From the NCBI GenBank assembly GCA_002082585.1, contig CP020563.1, positions 1,978,001-2,042,000 on the forward strand: a stretch of 64,000 nucleotides of DNA, written 5' to 3'. This document shows, one piece after another, positions 993 through 62,947 of this stretch. This DNA comes from Kitasatospora albolonga (lineage in GTDB: Bacteria; Actinomycetota; Actinomycetes; Streptomycetales; Streptomycetaceae). Under the pieces are notes generated by a model, which was given only the letters and a program-made list of their open reading frames with translations, ran no database searches and was not told the origin of the DNA. The position numbers and the translations under genes were made by a program. The first letter of the stretch is position 1, and each line of letters begins with the position of its first letter.

Positions 993-1025
993 GCTCCGGT
1001 ACGGCTCCGGTACGGCTCCGGTGCG
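993..1025. repeat. 11-bp tandem repeat after doxX-like stop
   Basis: Three adjacent copies of GCTCCGGTACG (the last with one change, GTGCG) begin two bases after the TGA of the DoxX gene. One of about ten tandem duplications in this window that sit at gene 3' ends. Confidence 0.9.
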
Positions 1026-1030
1026 TACGG

Positions 1031-1071
1031 GTGCCCCGTCCCCGCGCGAACGTTGCGCGGGGACGGGGCAC
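1031..1071. terminator. Bidirectional hairpin terminator
   Basis: Perfect 17-bp arms (1031-1047 and 1055-1071, GTGCCCCGTCCCCGCGC and its complement) around a 7-base loop. It lies between the convergent DoxX and SOD-like genes and can serve both. There is no T-run, as is usual for Streptomyces. Confidence 0.85.
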
Positions 1072-1085
1072 CGCCCGTATCGCCC

Positions 1086-1121
1086 GCCTGCGCCTGTGCC
1101 TTTGCCTGCGCCTGCGCCTAC
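1086..1121. repeat. 6-bp tandem repeat at SOD-like gene stop
   Basis: Six 6-bp units (GCCTGC, GCCTGT, GCCTTT, GCCTGC, GCCTGC, GCCTAC) run into the stop codon of the SOD-like gene (minus-strand TAG at 1118-1120), the last unit containing the stop. Confidence 0.85.
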
Positions 1122-1957
1122 GCCGAGAACGGCACCGTGAAGCAGGCCACCCGCTTCCCCGCGCCGCCCTGCACATCGTGGACGATCACCGACCGGGCGC
1201 CGCCGTCACGGAACCCCCAGTCGTGCCGCGCCTCCGCCGTACCGTCGCCGTTCCCGTCGGTACGGAAGTCCAGCCACACCTCGTTGACCGGGTCCGCGGT
1301 GGCCGAGGTCCGGTGCTGGTAGTGCGGCCCCGCCGACGCGGGATCGGCCGCACAGGGCGAGGTGTGGACGTGCATCCCGTACGCACGGTCGGGGACGAGG
1401 CCCCGCAGCCGGGTGGAGACACGGGTGGTGGTCCGGTCCGCGTACTGCGTGACCTCGATCCGCGCGGCGGCCGGTACGAGACGGGTGTCGTACGTCAGGG
1501 CATCGGACGGGACAAAGGAGCCGGGCGGGGAGAAGACCCCGTCGACCCGCATCCAGAGGCCACCACTGCGCGAGGCACCCCCGACCATCCCCGCTTCCCC
1601 GGCCGCTCCGCTCGCGTCTCCGGCCGTCCCACTCCCTTCCCCGGCCGCTCCGCTCCCTTCCCCGGGGGCGCTTGCCTTCCCCGGACTGTGGGCCGCGTGG
1701 CCCGCGTGCCCGGCGCCGTCCGGGCCGGGCGTGCCGTCCGAACCGTCCGCCGTGCCGTGGGCCATGCCGACGCCGCCGGTGAGCATGAGCAGGGCAGCCG
1801 CCCCCACCAGCACCCTCCGCCGCCTCCGCGCTCCGAGCACCCCGCGTCCCCCGCGTACTCCGCCTCCCGCTCCCGCTCCTGCCTCGGCTTCGCCTGCCGG
1901 TCCTGCGAGTCCTGCCGGTCCTGCCGTTCCCGCTGCCTGGCCCGCCCCTGCTGTCAT
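1118..1957 (-). CDS. Secreted Cu/Zn superoxide dismutase-like protein
   Basis: Residues from about 150 form a Cu/Zn-SOD-like (SodC/CHRD-type) domain: GMHVHTSPC (His196, His198, Cys202), GPHYQH (His212, His215), VIVHD (His260) and a second cysteine Cys272 that could pair with Cys202. SodC enzymes dismutate superoxide outside the membrane. A hydrophobic segment at about 48-66 after RRRRR is a signal or membrane anchor. The regions before and after it are Gly/Ala/Ser-rich and built from short codon repeats (for example GEGSGAAGEGSG), so the first 40 residues are doubtful; a GTG at 1840 is an alternative start. Whether the domain is catalytic or only SOD-like cannot be decided. Confidence 0.75.
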   Translation of the reverse strand: MTAGAGQAAGTAGPAGLAGPAGEAEAGAGAGGGVRGGRGVLGARRRRRVLVGAAALLMLTGGVGMAHGTADGSDGTPGPDGAGHAGHAAHSPGKASAPGEGSGAAGEGSGTAGDASGAAGEAGMVGGASRSGGLWMRVDGVFSPPGSFVPSDALTYDTRLVPAAARIEVTQYADRTTTRVSTRLRGLVPDRAYGMHVHTSPCAADPASAGPHYQHRTSATADPVNEVWLDFRTDGNGDGTAEARHDWGFRDGGARSVIVHDVQGGAGKRVACFTVPFSA

Positions 1958-2157
1958 ACGCTGCTGCTCCTCGCTCGTACCGGTCGCTTCGCCTGCCTAA
2001 CGCGCGTACCGCCCGTGAGGTGTACGTGACCGGCGGAACATCACCCGACCCTGAGCGATCTGCGCGGAACCCTCACGCGTACGCTGTACAGCTGAACCTG
2101 CCGCCCATGCCGCTCCCCTGCGACGTCGCGGCGTTGACACGATCGGGGAGTCGACGG

Positions 2158-2949
2158 GTGCTCGAGAGTCTGGCCGCGCTGACCAGCAGTCCATGGATCT
2201 ACGTCGTGGTCGCTGTGTCGGTGCTCCTGGACGTCTTCCTCCCCCTGCTGCCCAGCGGCGTCCTCGTGATCACCGCCGCCACCGCCGCAGCCGCGGGCTC
2301 GACCGGTGTCAACGGCTCCGGCAACGCGACCGGTGAGGTGCCCTCGCTCGTCGTCCTCATCCTCTGCGCGACCACCGCTTCGGTGCTCGGCGACCTCGTC
2401 GCGTACCGCCTCGCCTGGCGCGGGGGCGACCGGCTGGACCGGGCGATCGCCCGCTCACGCCGTCTCACCAGGGCGCAGGAACGTCTCGGCGTGGCCCTGA
2501 GCCGGGGCGGCGGCGCGCTCGTCGTCATCGCCCGGTTCGCCCCCGCCGGGCGGTCCGTGGTCTCCCTCGGGGCGGGCGCCGCCCACCGCAGGGTGCGGGA
2601 CTTCCTGCCGTGGTCGGCCCTGGCGGGCCTGGCCTGGGCGGGCTACAGCGTGGGGCTCGGCTACTTCGGGGGCCGGTGGCTCGGTTCGACCTGGTTCGGG
2701 ACGGCCGTCTCGGTGCTGGCCCTGTTCATGGCGGGTGCGCTGGCCGCGTTCGTCGTGAAGCGCCCGGCCGGCCGACGGGCGGCGATGGCCGAGGCGACGT
2801 CACAGACCCAAGCCCAGGTACGGGCCCAGGCACAGGCCCTCCAGGGCTCCTCCGCAGCGGCCTCCGCGCCCCGGACCGTCCCGGGCACGGTCCCCGGTCA
2901 GGCGGGCGGCCCGGCCCCGGTCACGGCCCCGGCGCCGGTCTCCCCCTGA
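2158..2949 (+). CDS. DedA family membrane protein
   Basis: About 263 residues if started at GTG 2158, chosen because GGGGAG lies 9 bases upstream (2145-2150); upstream ATG codons at 2020 and 2107 are in frame but lack such a site. The N-terminal helix with DVFLPLLPSGVLVITAA, the loop LGDLVAYRLAW and the segment FAPAGRSVVSLGAG match the DedA/SNARE-associated family, membrane proteins with re-entrant loops involved in lipid flipping and envelope homeostasis. The C-terminal 70 residues are a charged then Ala/Pro/Gln-rich tail. Three to four further hydrophobic helices are visible. The downstream neighbour is convergent. Confidence 0.75.
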   Translation: MLESLAALTSSPWIYVVVAVSVLLDVFLPLLPSGVLVITAATAAAAGSTGVNGSGNATGEVPSLVVLILCATTASVLGDLVAYRLAWRGGDRLDRAIARSRRLTRAQERLGVALSRGGGALVVIARFAPAGRSVVSLGAGAAHRRVRDFLPWSALAGLAWAGYSVGLGYFGGRWLGSTWFGTAVSVLALFMAGALAAFVVKRPAGRRAAMAEATSQTQAQVRAQAQALQGSSAAASAPRTVPGTVPGQAGGPAPVTAPAPVSP

Positions 2950-2986
2950 GCCTGCTCGGCCCCCTCGGTCTCTCCCCCTGGCGGGC

Positions 2987-3232
2987 TCAACGTCCGACGG
3001 TGGCGCTCCGAGCGGCGGCGCCGCCCCCGCGTATCTCCAGGCCGTCCAGCAGCTTCATCGTGGCTGCGGTGATCTCGTCGACGGCACGGTCGAACACCTC
3101 CCGGTTGTGCGCGGCGGGTGCGCGGAAACCGGACACCTTGCGCACGTACTGAAGGGCTGCGGCCCGCATGTCCTCCTCGGTGGCCTCTTCGGGGAGGGCG
3201 GGCGGTCGAAGGGTCTTGATGCTGCGGCACAT
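2987..3232 (-). CDS. DUF2277 family small protein
   Basis: An 81-residue protein that begins MCRSIKTLRPP, the characteristic N-terminus of DUF2277 proteins; this decides the start at 3232 rather than the ATG at 3292. The rest, with EATEEDMRAAALQYVRKVSGF and a predicted long helix, fits the family. Function is unknown. It stands alone, convergent with the DedA gene and in the same direction as the membrane protein gene upstream of it. Confidence 0.75.
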   Translation of the reverse strand: MCRSIKTLRPPALPEEATEEDMRAAALQYVRKVSGFRAPAAHNREVFDRAVDEITAATMKLLDGLEIRGGGAAARSATVGR

Positions 3233-3974: not shown

Positions 3975-4135
3975 ACGGCTCACGGGTGCGCGTACAGGTG
4001 CTTCCGCGCACAGGTGCTTCACAGGCTCACGAACCACGGGCTCCCGGACCACGGACTCACAGCTGCTTTACGGGCTCACGGCCGGTCACGGGCTCACGGC
4101 TGCTTCACGGGCCTACAGCGGTCACGGGTTCACGG
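3975..4135. repeat. Degenerate tandem repeats at 3' end of small ORF
   Basis: The 3846-4121 gap is filled with diverged copies of CACGGGCTCACGGC-like units, e.g. CACGGGTTCACGGC, CACGGGCTCACGGC, TACGGGCTCACGGC and CAGGTGCTTC blocks. They begin at the stop codon of the downstream minus-strand ORF (4122-4124) and extend away from it, with the longest degenerate array in the window. No gene is seen inside. Confidence 0.7.
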
Positions 4136-4355
4136 CCGGGCTCCAGGTGTCGAGGTCGCCGCCACGCCATTCGATCAGCCCCGGCCGGTCCAGCTCGATG
4201 ACCTCGTCCGGTCCCGGCGCGAACCCGGCGGCCCGCAGCAGGGCGGCCACATCCCCCCGCCCGTGCGCCAGCCCCACGATCTGCCCGTGCACAGTGACCC
4301 GCCGCCCTCCGGTCGCGGAGGGCGGGTGGACGATCACAGGCGGATGCGCGGCCAT
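4122..4355 (-). CDS. Small conserved hypothetical protein
   Basis: A 77-residue protein starting MAAHPPVIVH. The N-terminal HPPVIVHPP... and a compact body with GRRVTVHGQIVGLAH, then a helix GDVAALLRAAGF and an acidic C-terminal part ending WRGGDLDTWSPAVNP suggest a small soluble alpha/beta protein. I do not recognise its family. The longer frame to 4535 is rejected because it would overlap the DksA-like gene region and has repeat-like arginine-rich sequence. It lies downstream of the DksA-like gene on the same strand and may be cotranscribed with it. Confidence 0.55.
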   Translation of the reverse strand: MAAHPPVIVHPPSATGGRRVTVHGQIVGLAHGRGDVAALLRAAGFAPGPDEVIELDRPGLIEWRGGDLDTWSPAVNP

Positions 4356-4946: not shown

Positions 4947-4951
4947 GACAC

Positions 4952-6159: not shown

Positions 6160-7710
6160 GTGACGGCGACACACACGCGGCCAGAGGCAGGAGCGGGTGG
6201 AAGTTCCGCCGTCAAGAGCGTCGAGAGCGTTGTCGAGCCCGTCCCGGATGCCCGGGGCGAGCGCGAGCAGGGCCTGCGCAGGCACAGGGGGACCCACAGC
6301 GGCGGACAGGGGCTCCGGGACGTCGGAGGCGGACAGGCCGTCCGGGATGCCCGCGGCGGACAGCGGGTCCCGGACGGCGGAGGCAGCCGGGGGCTCCGGG
6401 ATGTTCTGGGGCTTGTGCTGCTGCCCGTGCCCCTTCTCGTCGCCGCGCTGCCCGCCGCCTTCGCCGGGGGCGGTACGCGACGGTGGTTCGGCGGGCGGGG
6501 GGAGAGCCAGCGGGCCGAGGCCCAGGCGGCCCGGGACGCGGCGGCCGAGGCTTTCTACGAGCTGGACACCGCCCAGCGCGACCTCCAGATCTCCATCGAG
6601 ACCATCAACGCCGTGGACAACTCCCCGCGGGGCCGCAAGGCGGCGGAGGACTTCGCCGCGCTGGGGCGGCGCATCGACGAGGTCAGCCACGCCTACATCA
6701 CCGCCGTCGACGCCCACGATCTGGACCGGGACGATCTGGAGCCCTCCGTCGCCTCCCGTGCCCGCACCGAGCTGACCCGGGCCAAGGACGATCTCGTACG
6801 GGTCAAGGGTGAGCTGGACCGGTTCGGGCAGGGGCTCGGGACCCTGCTGGGCAGTGCGGAGACCCAGCTCGCCCGGCTGGCCCCCGCCGTGGAGCGGGCC
6901 CGGCAGGCGCTGCTCGGGGCGAGCAACGCGCTCGATGCCGTACGGGCGGCGGGGCTGCGCGCCGATGAGCTCGCGGCCCGGCTCGCCGCCCTCGCCCCCG
7001 AGCTGACCAAGCTCAACCAGGGCGCGGGGAAGCACGGTGTCGCCGAGACGCTCCAGCGGGCCGATGTGGTCCTGCGCGATGCGGAGTCGCTTCGGGCCGA
7101 GGCGGAGCGGCTGCCGGAGCGGGCCGCCGAGATCGACCGGCGTCTGGTGTCGCTGCGGACCCGCGCCCAGGCCCTGACCACGCGGGCGGGCTCCGTGGAG
7201 CCGGTGCTCAGCGAGCTGCGGCGGCGCTTCTCGGCCGCCTGCTGGCAGGACCTCCAGCCGGTGCCGGAGCAGGCCGCCGTCAACGTACGGCAGGCCGAGG
7301 AGAAGCTCGCGGAGGCGGCGAAGGCGCGGGAGGAGCAGCGCTGGGCGGATGCCACCTCCCGGCTCTCCACGGTCCGCGCCTTGCTGAACGCGGTCGACGA
7401 AGCGGTCTCCGCTGCCGGGGACCGGTTGCAGCGGCTGGACGCCGTGGCGAAGGACCCGCAGCAGGAGATCGAGCGGACGCGGTTCGCCGTACGGGACGCG
7501 CAGCGCCTCGCCATGGCCGGCCGCCATACGCCCGATCCCCGGCACGCCCGGCCGCTCGACGACTCCGTGGCACGGCTGGACCGGGCCATCGCCGGTCTTG
7601 AGGGCCGTCACCCCGACTACTGGCACTTCCTGACCGAGACCGAGGCCGTTCGGCAGACCGCTGCCCGGGTCGTCTCCGACATCCGTGAGGAGCGTGGCGG
7701 CGGGGCCTGA
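6160..7710 (+). CDS. Membrane-anchored coiled-coil protein
   Basis: A 516-residue protein from GTG 6160 (GGGAGAGGG just upstream). The first 75 residues are Gly/Arg-rich with repeated GLRDVGGGQ-like units; one membrane helix follows (about 81-103, LGLVLLPVPLLVAALPAAF). The remaining 400 residues are almost entirely charged helix rich in Ala, Glu, Arg and Leu, with heptad patterning typical of long coiled coils, and include two cysteine-poor linkers. It could be a cytoplasmic scaffold tethered to the membrane. I do not recognise a named family beyond conserved Streptomyces hypothetical proteins. It follows the DUF4097-like gene by 72 bp and may be cotranscribed. Confidence 0.7.
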   Translation: MTATHTRPEAGAGGSSAVKSVESVVEPVPDARGEREQGLRRHRGTHSGGQGLRDVGGGQAVRDARGGQRVPDGGGSRGLRDVLGLVLLPVPLLVAALPAAFAGGGTRRWFGGRGESQRAEAQAARDAAAEAFYELDTAQRDLQISIETINAVDNSPRGRKAAEDFAALGRRIDEVSHAYITAVDAHDLDRDDLEPSVASRARTELTRAKDDLVRVKGELDRFGQGLGTLLGSAETQLARLAPAVERARQALLGASNALDAVRAAGLRADELAARLAALAPELTKLNQGAGKHGVAETLQRADVVLRDAESLRAEAERLPERAAEIDRRLVSLRTRAQALTTRAGSVEPVLSELRRRFSAACWQDLQPVPEQAAVNVRQAEEKLAEAAKAREEQRWADATSRLSTVRALLNAVDEAVSAAGDRLQRLDAVAKDPQQEIERTRFAVRDAQRLAMAGRHTPDPRHARPLDDSVARLDRAIAGLEGRHPDYWHFLTETEAVRQTAARVVSDIREERGGGA

Positions 7711-7722
7711 GCAAGCCCGTCG

Positions 7723-8020: not shown

Positions 8021-8080
8021 CTACTTCTCGCGTGAGAGCGTCACTTCTCGGGTGAGAGCGTCACTTCTTACGCGCGAGCG
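8021..8080. repeat. 20-bp tandem triplication spanning a stop codon
   Basis: Three adjacent 20-bp units (8021-8040, 8041-8060, 8061-8080; TCACTTCTCGGGTGAGAGCG-like). The third unit is the end of the O-methyltransferase gene; on the minus strand each copy repeats the gene's final AAGTGA or AAGTAG stop context. Confidence 0.9.
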
Positions 8081-8720
8081 TCAGACCGTCCGCGACCGTG
8101 AGCAGCACGCTGTCCATCCGGGCGTCGGCGGTCACATGCTCGTTGAACTCCTTGATCGCCGCCGTCGGACCGGTCGCCTCCGGATCGGTGACCCCGCCGT
8201 GGAAGAGCACGTTGTCCACCGCGATGAGCCCGCCCTGCCGCATCCGGGGCACCAGCTCCTCCCAGTACGCGATGTATCCGCCCTTGTCCGCGTCCAGGTA
8301 GGCGAAGTCGATGTGCGGCTCGGCGGGCATCGCGCGCAGGGTGTCCAGGGCCGGGGCGATACGCAGGTCGATCCGGTCCGCGACGCCCGCCTTCGCCCAT
8401 GCCTCGCGGCCGTACGCCGTCCACTCCTCCGAGATGTCGCAGGCGATCAGCGTGCCGTCGGCGGGCAGCGCCTGGGCCATCGCCAGGGCGCTGAACCCGG
8501 TGAACGTACCGACCTCCACCACATGCCGGGCGCCCACCAGCCGGACGAGGAAGGCCAGCAGCGGGGCCTGTTCCTCGGCCGACACCATGCCCGCGTGGTC
8601 GGGGAACCGGGCGTACGTGGTCTCCACCAGCTCCCGCTGGACCGGGTCCAGCGGCGGGTTGTGGGCCAGCATGTAGGCGTACAGCTCGTCGGTGATCGTG
8701 GTCTCGTTGCCCTTGGTCAT
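8061..8720 (-). CDS. O-methyltransferase (family 3, SAM-dependent)
   Basis: A 219-residue class I methyltransferase. Motif I is VVEVGTFTGFS (about 73-83), the acidic SAM-ribose residue follows in GTLIACDIS, and DFAYLDADKGGY with LIAVDNVLFHGGV are the metal- and substrate-site motifs of catechol/caffeoyl-CoA-type O-methyltransferases. The usual length of the family is about 220 residues, so the gene is complete. ATG 8720 follows GGGGG at the expected distance. It lies 56 bp downstream of the HAD phosphatase gene on the same strand and could end the Ter operon, but its role there is inference. Substrate unknown; divalent metal dependence is expected from the family. Confidence 0.85.
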   Translation of the reverse strand: MTKGNETTITDELYAYMLAHNPPLDPVQRELVETTYARFPDHAGMVSAEEQAPLLAFLVRLVGARHVVEVGTFTGFSALAMAQALPADGTLIACDISEEWTAYGREAWAKAGVADRIDLRIAPALDTLRAMPAEPHIDFAYLDADKGGYIAYWEELVPRMRQGGLIAVDNVLFHGGVTDPEATGPTAAIKEFNEHVTADARMDSVLLTVADGLTLARKK

Positions 8721-8776: not shown

Positions 8777-9601
8777 TCACGCCGCCGAGGCCGCCAGGAA
8801 CCGGCGCAGGATCTCCTCCCCCGCCGCCCCGCCCCGCTCCTCCAGCGCCACGACGTGCGGGGCCTGCCAGTCGTCCTCGGCCAGTTCGCCGTGGCCGGGG
8901 CGCCAGCCGAGGTCGGCGGCCAGGAGCAGGTCCGCGTCGAGGAGGGAGTCCCCGGCGGCGAGCGTGCGGGTGGCGCCGGAGCGGCGGGCGACCTCGTTCA
9001 TCGCGGCGCTCTTGGTGAGCGGGGCCGGGACCGCGTAGATCTTGCGGCCCTGGAGCGAGACCGTCCAGCCGCGCTCCTGCGCCCAGACCGCCAGCTCCTT
9101 CACCCACTCCTCGGGGAGGAGGGAACGCTCCACGACCAGATAGGCGAAGAGGTCCTCGGCCACCCGGTCCTTGAGGAGCCAGGCCGGGTCGGCGGTGGTG
9201 GCGAGGTGGGCGCGGATCTCGGTGAGGGGTGCGCACTCCTCGGCGATGCGTGTCTCCACCTGCCGCTGCCAGTCCCGGTCGGAGACCCCGTCGACCAGGA
9301 TGTGGCCGCCGTTGGCGCAGATCGCGTACCGGGGGGCGGGGCCGGGGAGGTGGATGCGGTGGTACTGCTCACGGGTGCGGGTGGTGGTCGGCACGAAGAC
9401 CGTGGAACCGGCCACCTCGGTGAGGAGGGCGGCGGCCGTCTCCGTCATGTACGACAGGGGCTTGTGGCCGTACACCTCGACGCAGAGGAGCCGGGGGGCC
9501 TCCGCGTCCGGCATCGCCAGGCCGAGCGCTGCCGCCGAGTAGATCAGCGTACGGTCGAGGTCGCTCGCGACCAGCGTGGCCGGTGATGAAGTCACGCTCA
9601 T
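8777..9601 (-). CDS. HAD phosphatase of the Ter biosynthetic module
   Basis: A 274-residue HAD-fold hydrolase. Motif I is DLDRT (nucleophile Asp14, acid/base Asp16), motif II is a Thr in VPTTTRT, and motif IV is GDSLLDADLL near residue 217, so all catalytic motifs are present. ATG 9601 overlaps the stop of the phosphoribosyltransferase gene as ATGA, implying translational coupling. In the Ter systems described by Anantharaman, Iyer and Aravind, a HAD phosphatase, PRTase-TRSP protein and CitE-like aldolase are proposed to make a nucleoside-like metabolite; this gene is the predicted dephosphorylation step. Confidence 0.85.
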   Translation of the reverse strand: MSVTSSPATLVASDLDRTLIYSAAALGLAMPDAEAPRLLCVEVYGHKPLSYMTETAAALLTEVAGSTVFVPTTTRTREQYHRIHLPGPAPRYAICANGGHILVDGVSDRDWQRQVETRIAEECAPLTEIRAHLATTADPAWLLKDRVAEDLFAYLVVERSLLPEEWVKELAVWAQERGWTVSLQGRKIYAVPAPLTKSAAMNEVARRSGATRTLAAGDSLLDADLLLAADLGWRPGHGELAEDDWQAPHVVALEERGGAAGEEILRRFLAASAA

Positions 9602-12150
9602 GCGCCCTGCACCGCCTTGCCGTCCGCGCCCGTCGCACCGCGCGTGAAGCGGGGGTGGATCAGACCGACACAGCTGTACGGGAGGCCGTCGACCTCCTCG
9701 ACCGGGACGCCGCGCTGCTCGGCCAGCAGCCGGATGTGCGTCAGGTCCGCGCCCGCGCCGCGCTTGGCGAGGATCTTCCAGGGGACCCGGCGCAGCAGGA
9801 CCCGGGTGGTCTCGCCGACGCCCGGCTTGACCAGGTTGACGTCGTGGATGCCGTACTCCTCGCTGATCCGCTCGACGGCCGCCCAGCCCTCCCAGGTCGG
9901 GGCCCGGTCGGCGGCGAGCAGCTCCTTGGCCGCCGCGTCGACTTCGTCCGCCACCTCGTCGAAGCGCGCGGCAACGGTGTCGAGGAAGTGGCCCGAGACG
10001 TCGGACTCCGCCAGCTCCCGGTAGAACTTCCCGCCGTGGAAGTCGTCGGGCCCGACCAGGTCGGCGCGGAGCACCGTACGGGAGATGAGGCCGGAGACCG
10101 TGGAGTTGAGGCAGGCCGAGGGGATCAGGAAGTCCTCGCGGGTGCCGTACGTACGGACGCAGCCGCCCGGGTCCGCGAGCACCGCGATCTCCGGGTCGAA
10201 GCCGGTGATTCCGCTCGACGCCTCGAACGCGCTGATCGCCGCCGCCAGTTCGCGGGTGATCGCGCCCTTCCCCGTCCAGCCGTCGACAAACACCACGTCG
10301 GCCGGGTCGTGGTGCGCGGCCAGCCAGCGCAGGGCGGTGGCGTCGATGCCCCGGCCCCGGACGATGGAGATCGCGTAGTGCGGCAGGTCCAGGCCGTGCC
10401 GGTGGCGGGCCCAGTGGCGCATCAGGACCCCGACGGGCGTTCCGGCGCGGGCGAGCGAGACGAGGACCGGGCGCGGGCCGCGTTCGGCGAGGACCGTCTC
10501 GGTGACGGTGCCCACCGCGCGGGCCATGCGCGCGGCGGAGGCGTCCAGGGCGGCGGTGAACAGGGCCTGGTACTCGGCGCTCGGCTGGTACTCGACGGGC
10601 AGCGACTCGGCGTAGTGCGCGCCGCCGCTCTGGATCGCCTCCTCGCGCTCCTCGGTGGGCGCCTCCAGCTCGGTGTCCGAGAGGTCCTGGAGCAGCCAGC
10701 CGACGTCCTCCGGCGCGTAACTGGAGAAGTCGGGGCCTCGGAGGGGCTCGGGCAGCACGGCGGGCTCCTGAACAGATGGGGGGGTGTACGAGGGGACCAC
10801 CGCGAGAAGCACCTGGCCGGTGTGGGCCGCCAGGCGGGCGGGCAGTCCGTCGGGGGCGTGCAGTCCGGGGGTGTCGGCGGTGGAGTCGACGACGGCGACC
10901 ACCGCGTCGAAGCCCGCTCCGGCCACGTTGTACGCGTACCGGTCGCCGGGGCCGTCCGCCGGGTCGTCGTGGGCCGGGAAGACGAGGCGGGTGCGTATCG
11001 CGTAGCCGGGGTCGTCGACGGCGAGGACGGGTGAGCGGGTGGTGGTGGAGTACCGGACCTCTGCGTCCGCCCCCAGCAGCGCTTCCAGGGCGGTGCCCAG
11101 GCGCAGCGGCGCGTACATCAGCTCCTCGAAGCCGAGGACGAGCACCCGGCGGGCGCCACTGTCCAGCGCGGCGGCGATCCGCTCCGCCATCCCCGGGAGC
11201 GCCGCTTCGAGCGCCGCCCGGTGTGCCGGGGTGAAGCCGTGCCGGCCGCCGTCGGGGACGCCCGCGGGCCAGCCGAGGTCGACGCGGGTGACGGGGGCGG
11301 GGCCCTCCGGGGCCTCCCCGGACCGGCCCGTAGCGACTCCCGCACCGGCTCCCCCGGCCCGGGTCTCCATCCGGGTCCCCGCCCGGGCACCCGTCTGCTG
11401 CGCCTCCTGCTCCTTCTCCTGCGCCGCGACCAGCGCCCGGCCGCGTTCCAGTACGCCGTCCGGCAGCGACACCGTTCCGGCGGCGCGGGTCACCAGGTCG
11501 ACGCGGGCGCCGATCTCGGCGGCGAAGGCGGTCAGCCGGTCGCGGTCCCCCGCCGAGCGCATGTCGACCAGGGCGACGATCACGTACCGCTCGCGCGGGT
11601 GCAGCGCGTGCAGGGCACGGATGGTGTTCAGGACCGTGTTGCCGGTGGAGAACTCGTCGTCGACCAGCACCAGGGCGGAGGCGCCCCCCGCGAACAGCTC
11701 GGGGTCCTCCGGCAGCAGCAGGTGCGAGGTGGCGTGCGAGTGGGACTCCTCGAAGCCGCCCGCCGGGGCGACGCCCGCGACCGGGCGCCGGGTGGAATGG
11801 AGGTACGGGGCGTCCCGCAGGCCGTCCGCGACGGCGTGGCCGAGGCCGGTGGCCGTTTCCGCGTACCCGAGGACGACCGCGCGGCGGGCCTCCTCATCGC
11901 CGAGGAGGGCCCGTACGCGCTCGCCGAGCCCGTACCCGGCCCCGTACACGACCGAGGGCTTCTGGGGTACGTGTTTGCCCAGCACGTTGGAGACCAGCAG
12001 GTGGGCCCGCTTGGGGTTGCGGCGCAGGGCGAGGCCCAGCAGCCCCTGGAGCTCCCCGTCGCCCTCCAGGGCCACGCCCAGCCGCTCGGCCACCCAGTCG
12101 CCCGACCACACCACGTCCACGGCCTCTTCTCTCCTCGCGCGCTCGCTCAT
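9598..12150 (-). CDS. PRTase-TRSP-StiP-PELOTA fusion protein
   Basis: An 850-residue multidomain protein. Residues about 40-230 are a phosphoribosyltransferase with the PRPP loop VDDEFSTG (163-170). About 285-465 is the TRSP domain (LGWPAGVPDGGRHG at its start). About 470-745 is a second PRTase-like/StiP-type domain with VSLARAGTPVG and VVFVDGWTGKGAI, the latter again resembling a PRPP loop. The last 80 residues (NLVKPGVGETTRVLLRR onward) resemble the PELOTA-type RNA-binding domain. In other bacteria these domains occur on separate neighbouring Ter-system genes, so this is a fusion of two or more steps. It is 10 bp downstream of the aldolase gene and overlaps the HAD gene. A Gln/Glu/Ala linker (245-285) separates the first two domains. 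Confidence 0.8.
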   Translation of the reverse strand: MSERARREEAVDVVWSGDWVAERLGVALEGDGELQGLLGLALRRNPKRAHLLVSNVLGKHVPQKPSVVYGAGYGLGERVRALLGDEEARRAVVLGYAETATGLGHAVADGLRDAPYLHSTRRPVAGVAPAGGFEESHSHATSHLLLPEDPELFAGGASALVLVDDEFSTGNTVLNTIRALHALHPRERYVIVALVDMRSAGDRDRLTAFAAEIGARVDLVTRAAGTVSLPDGVLERGRALVAAQEKEQEAQQTGARAGTRMETRAGGAGAGVATGRSGEAPEGPAPVTRVDLGWPAGVPDGGRHGFTPAHRAALEAALPGMAERIAAALDSGARRVLVLGFEELMYAPLRLGTALEALLGADAEVRYSTTTRSPVLAVDDPGYAIRTRLVFPAHDDPADGPGDRYAYNVAGAGFDAVVAVVDSTADTPGLHAPDGLPARLAAHTGQVLLAVVPSYTPPSVQEPAVLPEPLRGPDFSSYAPEDVGWLLQDLSDTELEAPTEEREEAIQSGGAHYAESLPVEYQPSAEYQALFTAALDASAARMARAVGTVTETVLAERGPRPVLVSLARAGTPVGVLMRHWARHRHGLDLPHYAISIVRGRGIDATALRWLAAHHDPADVVFVDGWTGKGAITRELAAAISAFEASSGITGFDPEIAVLADPGGCVRTYGTREDFLIPSACLNSTVSGLISRTVLRADLVGPDDFHGGKFYRELAESDVSGHFLDTVAARFDEVADEVDAAAKELLAADRAPTWEGWAAVERISEEYGIHDVNLVKPGVGETTRVLLRRVPWKILAKRGAGADLTHIRLLAEQRGVPVEEVDGLPYSCVGLIHPRFTRGATGADGKAVQGA

Positions 12151-16684: not shown

Positions 16685-16740
16685 CGCGCCATGCGTGGCG
16701 TTATGAAACGTTCGCGCCGTGCGTGGCGTTATGAAACGTT
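16685..16740. repeat. 28-bp tandem duplication including the terD stop
   Basis: Two adjacent 28-bp units, 16685-16712 and 16713-16740, differing at one base (CGCGCCATGCG versus CGCGCCGTGCG). The second contains the last codons and TAA of the terD gene; the first repeats them after the stop, giving a second GTTTCATAA. Confidence 0.95.
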
Positions 16741-17304
16741 GACGCCGAAGTCTAGAGCGATGCCGCGCAGCCCCGACGCGTACCCCTGGCCGACCGCACG
16801 GAATTTCCACTCGCCCTGGTAGCGGTAGAGCTCGCCGAAGATCATGGCGGTCTCCGTGGAGGCGTCCTCGCTGAGGTCGTACCGCGCCAGCTCCTGGCCG
16901 TCCGCCTGGTTCACCACGCGGATGAAGGCGTTGCTCACCTGGCCGAACGCCTGGCCCCGGTTGTCGGCGTCATGGATGGAGACCGGAAAGACGATCTTGT
17001 CGCAGTGTGCGGGGACCTGGTCGAGCCGGACGATGACCGACTCGTCGTCGCCGTCGCCCTCACCCGTCAGGTTGTCACCGGTGTGCTCGACGGAACCGTC
17101 GGGGCTGGTGAGGTTGTTGTAGAAGACGAACCACTCGTCACCGAGCACCCGGCCCGACTGGCACAGCAGCGCGCTGGCGTCGAGGTCGAAATCGGCTCCG
17201 GTGGTGGAGCGTGCGTCCCAGCCGAGCCCGACCAGCACCTGGGTGAGGTTGGGTGCGACCTTGGAGAGGGAGACATTGCCTCCCTTGGCGAGCGTGACGC
17301 CCAT
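16729..17304 (-). CDS. terD: TerD family protein, second copy
   Basis: A 191-residue canonical Ter[16 protein letters not shown] start, [10 protein letters not shown], the calcium site [13 protein letters not shown] and the C-terminal [16 protein letters not shown]. It is the same length as its neighbour (17481-18056) and very similar to it, so the two are tandem paralogues. TerD proteins bind calcium and are part of stress and tellurite responses. GAGGA precedes the ATG at the right distance. The stop is TAA after an extra serine codon (GVNVS), unlike the paralogue's GVNV-TGA, and lies inside a tandem duplication. Confidence 0.92.
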
Positions 17305-24988: not shown

Positions 24989-25681
24989 GTGACCCACGGG
25001 CAGAGAGCCGGAAACCGGCCCGGACTGCGTGAGCGCAAGAAGCAGCGCACCCGTGACGACCTGTTGCGCGCCGCACTCGAACTCTTCACCACCCAGGGGT
25101 ACGAGCAGACCACCGTCGACGAGATCGTCGAGGCGGTCGACGTCTCCCAGCGCACCTTCTTCCGCTACTTCGCGAACAAGGAGGACACCACCTTCGCCGT
25201 ACAGGAGATGGTGGAGTCCCGCTTCATCGCGGAGCTGCGCGCCCGTCCGGCCGACGAGGCCCCGTTCGAGGCCATGCGCCGGGCGGTGCTCAGCGCCTGG
25301 AACAGCATCGGCGAGGCGATCGAGGAGGTCATCACGGTCGACCTCCACATGCGGACGTACCGGATGATCGAATCGACCCCCTCCCTGCTCGCCGCCCATA
25401 TGCGGCGCGGGGTCGCCCTGGAGAACCAGATCGCCCGGCTGATCGCGGAGCGCGAGGGCCTCGACGTGGACCGGGACCCCCGGCCCCGGGTGGCCGTCGC
25501 CGCGTTCTCCGGAGTGATGCGGGTGACGGGCCAGCTGTGGGGCCAGGGCCAGGACTCGAGCGTGGAGGCGCTGCGCGACCTCACGGAGGAGTACCTGGAC
25601 CAGCTCGTCCCGGCCCTGGCGAGCGACTGGCGGCAACCGGCCCAAGAGGCGGCCGGAGAGTCAGCTCAAGGGGTGAGCTGA
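24989..25681 (+). CDS. TetR family repressor of the adjacent exporter
   Basis: A 230-residue regulator. The N-terminal HTH (about 18-60) has the TetR signature TTVDEIVEAVDVSQRTFFRYFANKED. The C-terminal ligand-binding domain is helical with EYLDQLVPALASDW near its end. The divergent arrangement with the MFS exporter predicts that it represses both genes until a drug or metabolite binds. GTG 24989 is preceded by GAAAGAGG. The last 17 bases form a tandem repeat that continues after the stop. Confidence 0.9.
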   Translation: MTHGQRAGNRPGLRERKKQRTRDDLLRAALELFTTQGYEQTTVDEIVEAVDVSQRTFFRYFANKEDTTFAVQEMVESRFIAELRARPADEAPFEAMRRAVLSAWNSIGEAIEEVITVDLHMRTYRMIESTPSLLAAHMRRGVALENQIARLIAEREGLDVDRDPRPRVAVAAFSGVMRVTGQLWGQGQDSSVEALRDLTEEYLDQLVPALASDWRQPAQEAAGESAQGVS

Positions 25682-25708
25682 CTCAAGGGTGAGCCGAGGG
25701 CGAGCTGA
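25665..25708. repeat. 16-17-bp tandem repeat spanning the tetR stop
   Basis: CTCAAGGGGTGAGCTGA (25665-25681, ending in the TGA), CTCAAGGGTGAGCCGA (25682-25697) and a shortened GGGCGAGCTGA (25698-25708). Confidence 0.85.
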
Positions 25709-27098: not shown

Positions 27099-27965
27099 AT
27101 GGGTGATGTGCTGGCCGGAATTCATACCACCTGGGAGTTCGACACCGACTCCGTGCTCATCCGCTTCGAACGGGGTATCCGCACGCCGAAGCTCCTGCAG
27201 AGCCTGCGGGAGCGCCGCATACCGCATGCTGCGCTGTCGTCGGTGACGCTGACCCCGGGCAAGCGGGACACGGTGGTGCTGCGTGCCGTGCCCAGACCGG
27301 GTGCCGACCCGCTCCTGGAGGCTGCCGCGGGGCAGCTCAAGGAGGGGTGCGACCCCTACCGCCTCGTGCTTCCGGCCGAGCGGGAGCTGCTCGCGGAGTA
27401 CTACGCGGACGAGCTGCGGTCCTGTCTGGGCCCCGCGTCCGACGAGCCCGCCGACCGCTTCATGGTCACGGCCCCCGAGGCTCCGTTGCAGTTCAAGGCG
27501 TACGACGGGCGGGCCGCCTTCGACGGGGAGCGGGTCTCGTTCCGGTGGTTCTGGACGGGGGCCTCCAGCGCCAAGTGGAAGGCCGGTGACCAGACGTACC
27601 GGGTGGGCGAGCTGGCCGGAATCGAGTGGCGCTCCCCCGAGGCCCTGGACGGCTACCTCCGTCTGGTGCCCCGCGCGGCCGAGGCCGGGCACGTGGCGGC
27701 GGACCAGGACCCGGCGGCCGTCGTGTTCGGCCTGGGCTACGGGCCGGTGCACGAGTCGCTGCCCTTCGCCGCCGCCGTACTGGAATCCGTCCGCCGGAGC
27801 CAGAACGCGCCGGTGGTTCCGGCGCCGGTCCTGGTGAACGCCGGGCGGCGCGATCCGGCGGACATCGCCGAGCGGATACATCACCTCGGGGAGCTGCACC
27901 AGGCGGGGCTGGTCACGGACGACGAGTACAGCGCGAAGAAGGCGGAGCTGCTCGCGGAGCTGTAG
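27099..27965 (+). CDS. DUF4429 protein with SHOCT C-terminus
   Basis: A 288-residue protein with two similar halves: GIHTTWEFDTDSVLIRFERG (about 5-24) and LQFKAYDGRAAFDGERVSFRW (about 132-152) are the repeated starts of DUF4429 domains (PH-like/bPH fold). The last 35 residues, DIAERIHHLGELHQAGLVTD then YSAKKAELLAEL, form the SHOCT oligomerisation motif. It is probably soluble. ATG 27099 (MGDVLAG) is the family start; ATG 27090 is in frame. It lies between the two DUF1023 hydrolases, upstream of the two-component system. Function unknown. Confidence 0.8.
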   Translation: MGDVLAGIHTTWEFDTDSVLIRFERGIRTPKLLQSLRERRIPHAALSSVTLTPGKRDTVVLRAVPRPGADPLLEAAAGQLKEGCDPYRLVLPAERELLAEYYADELRSCLGPASDEPADRFMVTAPEAPLQFKAYDGRAAFDGERVSFRWFWTGASSAKWKAGDQTYRVGELAGIEWRSPEALDGYLRLVPRAAEAGHVAADQDPAAVVFGLGYGPVHESLPFAAAVLESVRRSQNAPVVPAPVLVNAGRRDPADIAERIHHLGELHQAGLVTDDEYSAKKAELLAEL

Positions 27966-27982
27966 ACCCCGGCGAGGCAGGT

Positions 27983-28028
27983 GGGGCAGGCGCGACAGAC
28001 GGGGCAGGCGGGGCAGGCGGGGCAGGCG
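27983..28028. repeat. 9-bp tandem repeat after DUF4429 stop
   Basis: GGGCAGGCG occurs three times in perfect tandem (28002-28028) plus one nearby copy (27984-27992), starting about 18 bases after the TAG at 27963-27965. Confidence 0.85.
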
Positions 28029-34303: not shown

Positions 34304-34331
34304 CCGGGTCCCGGGTCCCGGGTCCCGGGTC
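34304..34331. repeat. 7-bp x 4 tandem repeat abutting a stop codon
   Basis: Four perfect CCGGGTC units end exactly where the stop codon of the small membrane protein gene (34332-34334, minus strand) begins. Confidence 0.95.
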
Positions 34332-34547
34332 TCAGGGCTGCCCGGTCTTCCCCCTCTGGACGAAGAAGTACGCGACGGCGCACATGGAGGCGATCATCAC
34401 GAGCAGGGCCCATCCGCCGGAGTTCCCCGACACGATGAGGAACACCGACAGGACCACCCCCACGGCGACGAAGGCCCCCATGAACTGGAGGTACCTCTTC
34501 ACGACCGCCCTCTGCTCCAGAGACCATCCAACACGCGGCATGTCCAT
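34332..34547 (-). CDS. Small two-helix membrane protein
   Basis: A 71-residue protein MDMPRVGWSLEQRAV..., with two predicted membrane helices (about 22-42 and 46-65) and a basic C-terminus RGKTGQP. A single charged N-terminal region precedes the first helix. No family is recognised. GGAGGGG upstream of ATG 34547 on the minus strand supports the start. Its stop abuts a 7-bp tandem repeat; no obvious terminator hairpin follows. Confidence 0.7.
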   Translation of the reverse strand: MDMPRVGWSLEQRAVVKRYLQFMGAFVAVGVVLSVFLIVSGNSGGWALLVMIASMCAVAYFFVQRGKTGQP

Positions 34548-39868: not shown

Positions 39869-40279
39869 ATGCGATCACTGGCGTACGACCTCGAATTCCG
39901 GGAGCAGTCCACCCGCATACGCGACTGGGGAGCCGGTCTCCTGCTCCTGGCGGCCCTGCTGTGGGGCTGGTGCGGGTTTCTGCTCCTGACGGACTACTCT
40001 GCCGAAACCTCCGGCGGCCGCACGGTCGCGTGCTCATCGCGGTTGTTCACGGAAGGCAGCACGGCCAACGAAGGCCGGGCACGTGGCGATTACTGCGCGG
40101 CCGAACGCGACTGGCCCGAGGTGCTGGCCGTGCTGTGGCTCTCCGTACCGGTGTCGATCGTGGGAACGGCGCTGTTCACGACCGGTCTGGTGAGCAAGCG
40201 GATGAGCGCCCACGCCCAGGCGGTACGTGAGCTGGACCGGCTGGCGGAGAGGCCGGCGCGGGGCCCCGACCCCTCCTGA
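39869..40279 (+). CDS. Two-helix membrane protein
   Basis: A 136-residue protein with two membrane helices (about 20-40 and 90-113) and a periplasmic loop with two cysteines (VACSSR and GDYCAAERDW) that could form a disulfide. The C-terminus is charged, ending RGPDPS. No family is recognised. ATG 39869. The stop lies inside a 15-bp tandem repeat. Confidence 0.65.
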   Translation: MRSLAYDLEFREQSTRIRDWGAGLLLLAALLWGWCGFLLLTDYSAETSGGRTVACSSRLFTEGSTANEGRARGDYCAAERDWPEVLAVLWLSVPVSIVGTALFTTGLVSKRMSAHAQAVRELDRLAERPARGPDPS

Positions 40280-40320
40280 ACCGGCCCCTCCTGGTCCGGC
40301 CCTTCCTGATCCGGCCCGCG
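40266..40320. repeat. 15-bp tandem repeat including a stop codon
   Basis: Units CCGACCCCTCCTGAA (40266-40280, containing the TGA), CCGGCCCCTCCTGGT, CCGGCCCTTCCTGAT and a partial CCGGCCCGCG. Confidence 0.9.
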
Positions 40321-41692: not shown

Positions 41693-41797
41693 CCTACAAA
41701 GGCGTGCGCGGGAGGTTCTTCCCGGTGCCGGGGTCGGTGCTCGGGGCGGTGCCGGGGCCGGTGCCGGGGGCGGTGCCGGGTCGGCGTGCTGCGGCCG

Positions 41798-42466
41798 TCA
41801 ATCCGCCAGCTCCCACACCACCAGCTCCGCACCCTCCCCCTCCCCCACCGCGGCGACCGCCTCCAGGCCCTCCGCCCCGGTGATCCGGGCCGCGTCGCCG
41901 GGGCCCAGCTCCTCCCCGGCCACCTCGACCCGTCCCCGTACGACATGCACGTACAGGCGCGCCGCGTCCGGCAGAGCTGTGCGCCCGCCCCCGGCCAGGC
42001 GCCGCACGTGGAGCACCGCACCGGCCTCCGGCAGGGCGTACGGGGTCGTGTCCGCGAAACCGGGGACGACCCGGTACGAGGGGTCGCCGCCGGACTCCTG
42101 AGGGGCCAGCCACATCTGGAGGAAAGTCAACGGGGCGTCCCCGTCGTTGCGTTCGACGTGGCGGACTCCGGCGGCGGCGCTGAGGTGGGCCAGGTCTCCG
42201 GCCCGTACGACGGTGGAGTGGCCGGCCGAGTCGCGGTGGGTCAGCTCCCCCTCGACCACCCAGGTGACGATCTCCGTATGGCTGTGCGGATGCTCGTCGA
42301 AGCCTGCGCCGGGGGCGAGCCGCTCCTCATTGCAGGCCAGGACCGGGCCGAAGCGGAGGTTGTCGGGGTCGTAGAAGGGGCCGAAGGAGAGGGCGTGCCG
42401 GGTCTCGATACCGGCGTCGGGCTCGCCGCCCCGGTAGCGGTCCTCGGAGCGGTGTACGGAGATCAC
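41798..42466 (-). CDS. Pirin family protein
   Basis: A 222-residue bicupin. Cupin motif 1 has FDEHPHSHTEIVTWVVEGELTHRDS with the metal-binding His-His-His-Glu set; the second cupin is shorter. Bacterial pirins act as quercetinases or redox-sensitive regulators of enzymes such as pyruvate dehydrogenase. GTG 42466 begins ISVHRSEDRYRGG, the family start; the frame to 42595 adds an arginine-rich part without support. It is downstream of the RHS promoter region, divergent from it. Confidence 0.88.
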   Translation of the reverse strand: MISVHRSEDRYRGGEPDAGIETRHALSFGPFYDPDNLRFGPVLACNEERLAPGAGFDEHPHSHTEIVTWVVEGELTHRDSAGHSTVVRAGDLAHLSAAAGVRHVERNDGDAPLTFLQMWLAPQESGGDPSYRVVPGFADTTPYALPEAGAVLHVRRLAGGGRTALPDAARLYVHVVRGRVEVAGEELGPGDAARITGAEGLEAVAAVGEGEGAELVVWELAD

Positions 42467-60309: not shown

Positions 60310-60389
60310 GGCCGTACCTCCTGGTCGAGTCCGGTGGATGTCCCCGGTGGATGTCTCCATGGTGTCGCGGTGGCAGGTAGATCGGTAGG

Positions 60390-60494: not shown

Positions 60495-61085
60495 ATGGCA
60501 CGGGCCAGGAGCGAGGAGCGGCGGGCCGAGATCCTGCGGGCCGCCCTCGAAGTGATCGCCGAACGCGGCTACCGGGGCGCGACGCTGGGCGCGGTGGCCG
60601 AGCGGGTGGGGCTGAGCCAGCAGGGGCTGCTGCACTACTTCCCGACGAAGGAAGCGCTGCTGGTGGCGGTGCTGGAGGACCGGGACCGGTGGGACACCGG
60701 CGGCGGCCGGGGCGGAGCCGGGGGCGAGGACGGGGCCTGGCGGCTGGAGCTGCTGGGCTCGCTGGTGGAGTACAACGCGATGCGGCCCGGAATCGTGCAG
60801 ACCTTTTCGGCGCTGCTCGGCGAGAGCGTGACGGAGGAGCACCCGGCGCGGGAGTTCTTCACCCACCGCTACACCCAGGTCCGGGCCGCGATGGCGGCCA
60901 CCCTGCGCGCCGAGTACGGCGACGCGCTGCCGGGCGGGCTGAGCCCGGAGCGGGCGGCGGTGCTGCTGGTGGCGGTGATGGACGGGCTCCAGTACCAGTG
61001 GCTGCTGGACCCGGAGGCCGTGGACATGCCGGAGGCGTTCGGTGACTTCCTCGGGCTGCTGAAGGGGGCTGCCGAGAAAGGCTGA
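60495..61085 (+). CDS. TetR family regulator of the GH3 gene
   Basis: A 196-residue regulator: HTH about 12-55 (GATLGAVAERVGLSQQGLLHYFPTK) and a helical C-terminal domain with MDGLQYQWLLDPEAVDM, typical of TetR_C sugar- or small-molecule regulators. Divergence from the beta-glucosidase gene suggests it controls that gene. A glycine-rich insert (GGGRGGAGGEDGA) lies between helices. GGAAGG precedes ATG. Confidence 0.88.
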   Translation: MARARSEERRAEILRAALEVIAERGYRGATLGAVAERVGLSQQGLLHYFPTKEALLVAVLEDRDRWDTGGGRGGAGGEDGAWRLELLGSLVEYNAMRPGIVQTFSALLGESVTEEHPAREFFTHRYTQVRAAMAATLRAEYGDALPGGLSPERAAVLLVAVMDGLQYQWLLDPEAVDMPEAFGDFLGLLKGAAEKG

Positions 61086-61178
61086 GAGGCCGTGAGCCTA
61101 GGCTGTCGGAAGATCAGAACGTTGTACGACGGGCCGCATCCGTCACACGGTCGCCCGTCACGATCGCCAGGGGGATAC

Positions 61179-61655
61179 ATGTCTTTCGAAGAGGAGTGGG
61201 CCGGACTCAAGGCGGATGCCGCCGCCCGGATGCAGCTCAACAGCGCGCCGGGGAGGGACCCGGACGCCTCACCGACCGGCGCGGACCTCGTCGCCTACGA
61301 CGACGAGCTGGGAAGGATCGGCCACCTCGCCTATCTGCTGCACAACAACCTCAAGGCCGACGGCAAGCACGCCGGGTCCACCACCGAGGCCGCGGGCACG
61401 AGCCTGAACTCGGACGGGTTCGAGACGGGCAAGGCGCTGACCTCCGCGGGCACGGCCTGGACGAAGCAGGTCGGGGCGCTGCTCTCCGCCTGCGCGCACA
61501 TCTCCAACCACCTCGACTACACGAAGGCGTCGAAGAAGAAGGACGACGACTGGGTCGTCGCCCAGCTCAGCGTCTCCAAGATCTCCGGCTACTACGACGT
61601 CCCCGGCAGGGACGAAGGACGTGCGGTGCCGAGGCCACAGGGCCCGGTCATATGA
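61179..61655 (+). CDS. ESX-like helical protein, first of a three-gene cassette
   Basis: A 158-residue protein MSFEEEWAGLKADAA... made of two long helices joined near GKALTSAGT, with a basic-acidic tail KASKKKDDD. WAG occurs near the N-terminus rather than in the usual turn. The type resembles small helical-hairpin (AG1/ESAT-6-like) partners of type VII substrates. GGGGGAT precedes ATG 61179. Fifty-three bases before the next gene. Confidence 0.65.
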   Translation: MSFEEEWAGLKADAAARMQLNSAPGRDPDASPTGADLVAYDDELGRIGHLAYLLHNNLKADGKHAGSTTEAAGTSLNSDGFETGKALTSAGTAWTKQVGALLSACAHISNHLDYTKASKKKDDDWVVAQLSVSKISGYYDVPGRDEGRAVPRPQGPVI

Positions 61656-61707
61656 TCCGCTCCGCTTCCCCTTCGTGTCCTTCCTCTTCACTCAGGCGAG
61701 GTGCCCT

Positions 61708-62649
61708 GTGCCAACGTTTCAGCAGCTTCTGAATCTCAGGACGAAGCCACTCGACTCGGCGATCGAGGACTGGGTGGCCATGACCAAGAAGCTCAAGGAG
61801 CTCGCCAAGGACGCGGAGGACATGCGTACGTATACGCAGGGAACGTCCTGGAAGGGCGAGAACGCCGCCGTCACCAAGCCGTTCGTCACGAGGACGGCGT
61901 CCCAGTTCCAGAACGCCGCGATCCAGGCCGGGAGCATCACCACGCTGCTCAAGGGCGTCCAGAGCGAGTTGACGGCGGCCAAGGCCGAACTCGTGGCGAT
62001 CTACGAGACCCCGCCCTACGGCGTCAAGATCTCCCCGGTCGGCGTCATCACCTACGTGGAGAGCGCCGATCCCGGCCGGAGCGACATCGACGCGCTCGTC
62101 ACCCGTATCGAAGCCATACTCCAGCGCGCGGCCGACGCGGACGCGCGCTGCGCCGGGGGGCTGGCGGCCCTCACGAAGGACCCGCACCGGTTCAGCTCCG
62201 AGCACTACGACTCCTTGAAGGACGCGGAGACGGTCAAGGAGCAGGAGACCCGGGCGAAGCTGAACGCGGTCGACTTCACGCCTCCCGAGAAGTGGGGCAG
62301 CGGCACCATCAAGCCCGCCGCCGAATTCCTCGGTTACCGCTCCTGGATAAGCGGCGGCCAGGCGTACCTGCGCGGAGACTGGAAGGGCGCGTGGGAGGGG
62401 TTCCACGGCGGCGAGCCGGCCGCCGCGGCGGGCAAGGGAGCCGATTTTCTCGAGAAGGCCACGGCTCCTGCGGCGGGGGCTCGCCCCGGGGTCCTCAACA
62501 TGGTGAGCAAGTTCGCGGGCAAGGTGCTCGGTACGCCCGTCGCCATCGGCGCGACGGCCGTCGACCACTACTACACCCCGGAGGACGAGAGACTGAACGA
62601 GACCCGGGTGGACGCTCCCAGGGCGCCGGGGAAGGTGCGATACCAGTGA
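61708..62649 (+). CDS. WXG/LXG-like type VII substrate protein
   Basis: A 313-residue protein. Residues 1-100 form a helical hairpin with WKG at 48-50 (TYTQGTSWKGENA), the WXG turn of type VII secretion substrates; the middle (about 110-230) is a folded region, and the C-terminal 60 residues include a hydrophobic segment and GTPVAIGATAVDHYYTPEDE. No toxin motif is recognised. GTG 61708; its stop overlaps the next gene (GTGA). Confidence 0.65.
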   Translation: MPTFQQLLNLRTKPLDSAIEDWVAMTKKLKELAKDAEDMRTYTQGTSWKGENAAVTKPFVTRTASQFQNAAIQAGSITTLLKGVQSELTAAKAELVAIYETPPYGVKISPVGVITYVESADPGRSDIDALVTRIEAILQRAADADARCAGGLAALTKDPHRFSSEHYDSLKDAETVKEQETRAKLNAVDFTPPEKWGSGTIKPAAEFLGYRSWISGGQAYLRGDWKGAWEGFHGGEPAAAAGKGADFLEKATAPAAGARPGVLNMVSKFAGKVLGTPVAIGATAVDHYYTPEDERLNETRVDAPRAPGKVRYQ

Positions 62650-62894
62650 CGCCCCCCGCGGGCCCACCGCCGCTGTCCGGCCGTCGCCGCACGGGCCCGG
62701 GGGGCCTGCTGCGGCCCCGGAGTTCGCGGACGTTCGTCCTCGGTCTGTGCATGTCCGTCGGCGGGCTCGGCGGCGGGGTGCGCGCCGCGATGGACGGCGA
62801 GGGGATCTGGCGGGCCCTCGGCACCTTCGGCGTCGGGCTTCTCGGGCTGGCGCTCACCGTCGCGTGGGTCATGACGTACGCGCGGGAGCGCTGA
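62646..62894 (+). CDS. Small two-helix membrane protein, third of cassette
   Basis: An 82-residue protein with a Pro/Arg-rich start and two hydrophobic helices (about 31-48 and 57-75). GTG 62646 overlaps the stop of the WXG-like gene by 4 bases. In type VII toxin cassettes such a position is often an immunity gene; here that is inference. Its stop lies in a 39-bp tandem duplication. Confidence 0.65.
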   Translation: MTPPAGPPPLSGRRRTGPGGLLRPRSSRTFVLGLCMSVGGLGGGVRAAMDGEGIWRALGTFGVGLLGLALTVAWVMTYARER

Positions 62895-62947
62895 GGCTCG
62901 CGAAGTGTCGTGACGTACGCGCCGGAGCGCCGAGGCTCACGAAGTCG
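62872..62947. repeat. Tandem duplication of a gene 3' end
   Basis: TGACGTACGCGCGGGAGCGCTGAGGCTCG... (62872-62910) is repeated as TGACGTACGCGCCGGAGCGCCGAGGCTCA... (62911-62947), including the last codons and TGA of the membrane protein gene. Downstream, GGTCACG recurs four times (62952-62988). Confidence 0.9.

Follow-up and report, generated by a model that had tools for sequence, protein, structure and literature searches.

Tandem arrays in the spacers between bacterial genes have been described in several lineages, and they are the subject of this analysis of 64,000 nucleotides of the Kitasatospora albolonga chromosome (contig CP020563.1; hereafter the window, positions 1,978,001-2,042,000 of an 8.03 Mb single-contig genome), in which an initial annotation had listed short tandem duplications at the 3' ends of about ten unrelated genes. 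The arrays of this genome and of other Streptomyces resemble bacterial intergenic tandem arrays of the minisatellite or variable-number tandem repeat (VNTR) type in consisting of head-to-tail copies beyond chance. Mycobacterial interspersed repetitive units (MIRUs) have a common sequence family, whereas no family is found among the Streptomyces arrays. The MIRU-VNTR loci of mycobacteria are, like the Streptomyces arrays, intergenic; in the rnc-fpg1 spacer the repeats start 40 bp past the stop codon, the spacer measures a few bp in species outside the complex, and the array has been linked to expression of the downstream gene (PMC2734929; this and the other papers are cited from excerpts). Borg tandem repeats, which begin in gene ends and whose genic units are multiples of three, resemble the Streptomyces arrays in evolving rapidly and arising independently (PMC9879509). 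They are, however, near perfect and A-rich, whereas the Streptomyces arrays are G+C-rich, ~85-87% alike and enriched past stops; with a mean match of 84.6-87% and an A content of 0.12, the latter are not of the Borg type.

Within the same genus, strains of S. venezuelae differ in the copy number of intergenic tandem repeats, described in one gene cluster as upstream and intergenic and read as regulatory, and the excerpt gives no positional rule (PMC7357120). A survey of prokaryotic satellites places S. coelicolor among the satellite-rich genomes, with 38 satellites or 4.2 per Mb; it covers only arrays of at least four repeats, and its excerpt gives no relation to stop codons (PMC6749651). Other kinds of repeats are treated in PMC4447401 and PMC4679880, those of the latter lying mostly before start codons, and the word "tandem" is absent from the excerpt of the Term-seq paper on S. 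griseus (PMC8914203). No stop-side rule for tandem repeats was found in the excerpts of the free-licence papers searched.

Arrays on the 3' side of genes

Two samples were compared: 80 evenly spaced 20-kb stretches of the genome itself, with the window left out, and, from 80 named Streptomyces, the loci surrounding one conserved gene of the window, one genome per species. Arrays were taken as Tandem Repeats Finder (TRF) rows with a score of at least 50 unless stated, genes were called with a self-trained codon model, and gene ends were counted only where they face a spacer of at least 60 nt. In the own-genome sample arrays occur at 155 of 689 3' ends and at 77 of 885 5' ends (Fisher p 2e-14); the corresponding counts for the 80 loci are 157/887 and 60/1087 (p 9e-18), with 53 species having more stop-side arrays, 9 more start-side arrays and 18 ties. 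Arrays cover 13.1% of the 150 nt on the stop side and 4.0% on the start side in the own genome, a ratio of 3.3 (95% interval 2.6-4.2) that becomes 4.9 for arrays of score at least 80, and 9.2% and 2.6% in the 80 loci (ratio 3.5, 2.7-4.9). Per 100 kb, the own genome holds 25 arrays in coding sequence, 66 in divergent spacers, 75 and 161 in the start and stop halves of tandem spacers and 149 in convergent spacers, and the 80 loci hold 22 in divergent spacers, 61 in start halves, 105 in stop halves and 236 in convergent spacers. Between genes, arrays outnumber those of dinucleotide shuffles 17-45-fold (40-79 seen and 1-4 shuffled per intergenic compartment). The enrichment at 3' ends proposed in the initial annotation thus holds against starts in the own-genome sample and the 80 Streptomyces loci, and the positional bias is real across the genus; its cause is likely ordinary.

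The proposal that position relative to the stop is what the arrays have in common needs to be corrected, as what they have in common is the 25-150 nt past the stop and not the stop itself. Stop-side coverage is 8-11% in the first 25 nt, 13-22% between +25 and +100 and ~2-7% beyond +150, so that the peak lies 25-150 nt past the stop, whereas start-side coverage is ~1-7% throughout except for 10.6% at 200-300 nt in tandem spacers. Of 2408 stops, 78 fall within an array (37/1139 in the own genome, 41/1269 in the 80 loci), and of 2423 starts, 16 do. Stop-side arrays have a median period of 19-21, and they are spread evenly along the chromosome, with no gradient.

Streptomyces carry 36.8 arrays per 100 kb in the own-genome sample and 34.1 in the 80 loci (summed by hand), compared with 10.7 in a Rhodococcus plasmid, 9.0 in a Cupriavidus megaplasmid, 5.5 in a Methylorubrum megaplasmid and 2.4 in E. 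coli, a difference of ~3-15-fold from a small sample in which three of the four replicons are plasmids. The low densities in Rhodococcus, Cupriavidus and Methylorubrum indicate that high G+C alone is insufficient, and the genus seems unusually productive of, or permissive for, tandem arrays. The side bias runs in the same direction in Cupriavidus (7/109 3' ends and 2/135 5' ends, p 0.08) and E. coli (2/87 and 0/121) and is absent in the Methylorubrum megaplasmid (1/75 and 1/85); the Rhodococcus side counts are void, the gene caller having performed badly there (coding 0.55-0.58). The own genome has one match to Ku, two to NucS_C (one barely above the cut-off) and none to MutS_I, MutL not having been searched for; these matches are compatible with poor indel repair but are no test of it.

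Origin and turnover of the arrays

Array presence and unit both vary between species at the same gene. Among orthologous stops (14 genes; 16 genes for starts; genes with fewer than 10 usable orthologs dropped), 144 of 676 ends carry arrays, and because these 154 arrays fall into 117 unit clusters, most of them arose independently; at orthologous starts, 42 of 826 ends carry 42 arrays in 40 clusters. The clusters were built on shared 6-mers, which is a crude criterion. In an earlier, separate count that did not apply the half-spacer rule (15 genes, same cut-off), 173 of 757 stops had arrays; in it the array rate differs among genes (chi-square 111, 14 df), and the end of gene 6415-7710 has an array in 24 of 70 species, in 26 unit clusters. 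The lowest rates, 5-7%, follow genes 15471, 16729 (TerD) and 18195, and the highest, 72%, follows gene 8061. In three of the loci (L199, L201 and L205) a single array covers the called stops of two opposite genes, one repeat being common to two gene ends.

The best reading is that these are near-neutral spacer insertions in an array-rich genus, mostly tolerated rather than working parts: tandem duplications, largely independent of one another and short-lived, which build up in the spacer between stop and terminator since insertions cost little there, a reading to which we give a probability of about 0.6. The genome has Ku and lacks a MutS_I match, and slippage or end joining with fill-in may give rise to the duplications in it. 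One that spans the stop would leave the protein unchanged, because the first stop is used, and one past the stop would merely lengthen the spacer and might push the terminator hairpin downstream, so that stop-side insertions would be close to neutral; one before a start would disturb a promoter, leader or ribosome site and then presumably be purged.

Several other accounts of the bias fare poorly. An artefact of composition or of gene calling might be argued from the higher G+C of stop-side spacers (0.71-0.73 vs 0.675-0.69) and from the caller itself: on a named Streptomyces plasmid, checked against 42 of its 44 annotated rows (all but the first row and a cut last row), it recovered 37 of the stops and the exact start in 21. 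The scarcity of arrays in the shuffles and a ratio kept at 3.0-3.1 with high-scoring genes only make this quite improbable. A dispersed MIRU-like family inserting at gene ends, for which position alone speaks, is the least probable account and was rejected: among 259 arrays, 137 unit pairs share at least three 10-mers compared with 100 when the units are shuffled, so that no unit sequence is common to the loci beyond composition, in agreement with the initial annotation's view that this is not one mobile repeat. Phase-variable simple repeats have short units, of about 1-6 bp, and lie in promoters or early in the coding sequence, and the median stop-side period sets these arrays apart from them. 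Selection of the copies as back-up stop codons, one of the explanations first offered, is hard to credit. The stop triplet is still present in 49 of 67 in-register downstream copies, yet the stop columns there are kept no better than others (89.6% identical in 201 cells, 0.896, vs 88.7% in 1173 cells elsewhere, 0.887), of 78 stop-covering arrays 32 have a period divisible by three, near chance (p 0.15), against 293 of 321 coding arrays, and few stops lie inside arrays at all. In the own genome, 92 of 214 non-coding arrays have a period divisible by three (p 0.004), a result that may be due to small genes that were missed or to coding ends that have decayed.

It is also very unlikely that selection maintains the arrays as functional 3' ends of mRNAs (terminators or barriers to decay), even though they sit where 3' untranslated regions (UTRs) lie, beside or overlapping terminator-like hairpins (34/71). 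In tandem spacers, to which the folding and hairpin-position tests were confined, windows with arrays fold little better than shuffles or no better (4-31 such windows at each position, about 200 spacers), while array-free windows at +15 and +30 fold better than shuffles by -2.6 and -1.9 kcal/mol; arrays were accordingly rejected as intrinsic terminators as a rule, few windows being available per position, and their units differ among species at the same gene. Strong hairpins are equally frequent at ends with arrays (71/169, ends carrying two or more arrays left out) and without (369/835), and the terminators therefore persist. The median start of the hairpin is +27 where no array is present; where the hairpin lies downstream of an array (22/71) it is +106.5, or +34.5 once the array length is subtracted, a displacement that suggests insertion into the spacer between stop and terminator.

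The chief alternative to tolerated insertions is that 3' ends are mutational hot spots, where duplications past stops would be set off as the polymerase is released, as R-loops form or as forks stall at terminators. It is an unlikely one, although it would account for the coverage peak at +25 to +150, highest in convergent spacers and lying about where the 3' UTRs of S. clavuligerus end (the peak matches their commonest length of 70-79 nt in the excerpt of PMC8269248), and an elevated birth rate would allow the equal purity of arrays on both sides (84.6 vs 85.1%; 87.0 vs 86.4%). A comparison with one relative (G005; 220 of 306 spacers of 20-2000 nt alignable, fourfold-site identity 0.834) bears on the choice. 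The least conserved spacer positions are the first nucleotides past the stop: within 25 nt, 0.27-0.33 of aligned sites differ after stops and 0.10-0.11 before starts. Indels of at least 6 nt outside arrays amount to 0.043 per substitution on the stop side and 0.026 on the start side, 1.7-fold, and those inside arrays to 0.0134 and 0.0080, the same 1.7-fold, so that an equal share of indels lies in arrays beside stops (36/152) and beside starts (26/110). Array coverage within 150 nt in the same aligned spacers is 11.3% and 5.7%, a ratio of 2.0, most of which is thus covered by a general tolerance of insertions. Tandem-type indels (8-150 nt) are not commoner at stops, with 16/132 against 23/98 at starts under the loosest cut and 0 against 5 under the strictest, although the alignments past stops are poor. 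A replication-transcription conflict was rejected: with the origin set at dnaA (3.974 Mb), leading and lagging strands do not differ in the own genome (tandem 56/269 and 31/166; convergent 31/127 and 37/127), strand skew is absent (mean -0.015 in 100 stop-side arrays and -0.013 in 47 start-side ones; p 0.62 and 0.78), and the chromosome shows no gradient. Tolerance on arrival is favoured over stop-specific duplication because of the equal array share of indels, the tandem-type indels and the equal purity, and there is no positive evidence for a duplication hot spot where transcription ends, as in the first explanation of the initial annotation. The bolder version, in which Streptomyces 3' ends are a true birthplace of tandem duplications through transcription or replication events at terminators that lengthen 3' UTRs genus-specifically, is likewise doubtful.

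Several observations weigh against tolerated insertion as the whole account. The genome-wide ratio of 3.3 exceeds both the 2.0 of the region of the indel test and its indel excess of 1.7, the latter difference speaking for a hot spot; as the indel test covers one region, its agreement with array coverage may not hold genome-wide, and part of the genome-wide excess may remain beyond insertion tolerance. At like substitution levels (0.15-0.21), stop-side bins are ~6-21% array and start-side bins ~2-7%, substitution and coverage coming from different stretches, and in 119 aligned spacers the tandem start-side bins at 150-300 nt, from ~1.3 kb, reach 25-28%, above the stop side. Longer retention of arrays beside stops was considered and not seen, purity being equal. 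Of the 71 best hairpins at array ends, 34 overlap the array and 15 precede it, and the late start of those downstream of an array is partly built into the measure. Finally, of 32 orthologs of gene 8061-8720 (minus strand), 23 have an array past the stop, and these form just 6 unit clusters; this is an older shared array, unlike the others, and hence not every array is independent.

Arrays in the window

Nine of the ten stop-side arrays named in the initial annotation appear in the TRF list near the positions it gave; the one assigned to tetR (25665-25708) is absent even at score 30. Of the gene names in use there, TerD alone was checked, with 17 TerD-family matches in the whole genome, three of these in the window; DoxX, SOD-like, O-methyltransferase, DUF4429 and tetR are labels of that annotation. 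By the protein of gene 9598-12120, the nearest named relatives are Streptomyces, among them S. sp. man185, S. fimicarius, S. anulatus and S. rubiginosohelvolus (86-89% identity). The features are as follows.

993..1022, plus strand: array of 11 bp x 2.7, beginning 1 nt past the stop at 989-991, which is not copied.
1023..1084, no strand: very stable, near-perfect hairpin of 62 nt between the two arrays of a convergent gene pair (-54.9 kcal/mol, z -7.7).
1085..1124, minus strand: array of 6 bp x 6.7, covering the TAG of gene 1118-1813; CAG or AAG stands there in the other copies.
3989..4139, minus strand: overlapping degenerate arrays with units of 15-37 bp (several TRF rows), over and beyond the stop of the open reading frame (ORF) ending at 4122.
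8023..8083, minus strand: array of 20 bp x 3, covering the TGA at 8061-8063; other copies also contain stop triplets, and the period is not a multiple of 3.
16685..16747, minus strand: array of 28 bp x 2.2, covering the stop of TerD gene 16729-17304.
25658..25684, plus strand: terminator-like inverted repeat across the stop at 25679-25681, at the site of the supposed tetR array; not a TRF array.
27971..28028, plus strand: array of 9 bp x 6.4, 5 nt past the stop at 27963-27965.
34304..34331, minus strand: array of 7 bp x 4, abutting the stop of the 71-aa ORF 34332-34547.
40266..40317, plus strand: array of 15 bp x 3.5, covering the TGA at 40277-40279.
41723..41784, minus strand: array of 24 bp x 2.6, 13 nt past the stop of gene 41798-42466; missed by the initial annotation.
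62868..62945, plus strand: array of 39 bp x 2, covering the TGA at 62892-62894; CGA in the second copy.

The stop of a called gene lies inside the array in five of the nine (stops at 1118, 8061, 16729, 40279 and 62894), the array at 3989-4139 holds the stop of the uncalled ORF ending at 4122, and the remaining three begin 0-5 nt past a stop. Two small ORFs, that ending at 4122 (alignable in G005 and G064) and 34332-34547, were missed by our gene caller. The tetR site is mainly an inverted repeat forming a hairpin, a 61-nt stretch there folding at z -3.8. The initial list was selective, as arrays of score at least 50 also lie within genes of the window (e.g. 1592, 55718, 59255) and on the start side (6299, 18683, 55233, 60331), and the window alone shows no stop-side excess (arrays at 8/38 3' ends and 8/44 5' ends).

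Turnover can be seen directly after the gene ending at 991, where by eye, among the alignments listed, the relative G123 carries a unit of 18 bp in which the gene end and its TGA are copied, G355 has other repeats and G074 none. The array at 27971-28028 is absent in G005, and G074 has a different repeat there that copies the stop region, again by eye. The hairpin at 1023-1084 is likely a two-way terminator; its stem can be recognised by eye in the aligned relatives, as sequence and not as a fold computed there, while the flanking arrays change. On the start side, a 54 bp x 1.9 array at 6299-6403 stands directly before a start, a counterexample to the stop-side position, and is largely absent in the aligned relatives listed; a clean 13-bp tandem duplication before a start at 60331-60355 is single copy in G005 and replaced in G064 by a partial, different duplication.

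Significance for Streptomyces gene ends

These results amount to a rule for the location of tandem repeats in a major bacterial genus, in which ~1 in 5 gene 3' ends (facing a spacer of at least 60 nt) carries an array, mostly a different one in each species. The rule bears on how 3' UTR length, VNTR typing sites and terminators are interpreted in these bacteria, and it makes stop-side spacers a natural place in which to separate mutation bias from constraint.

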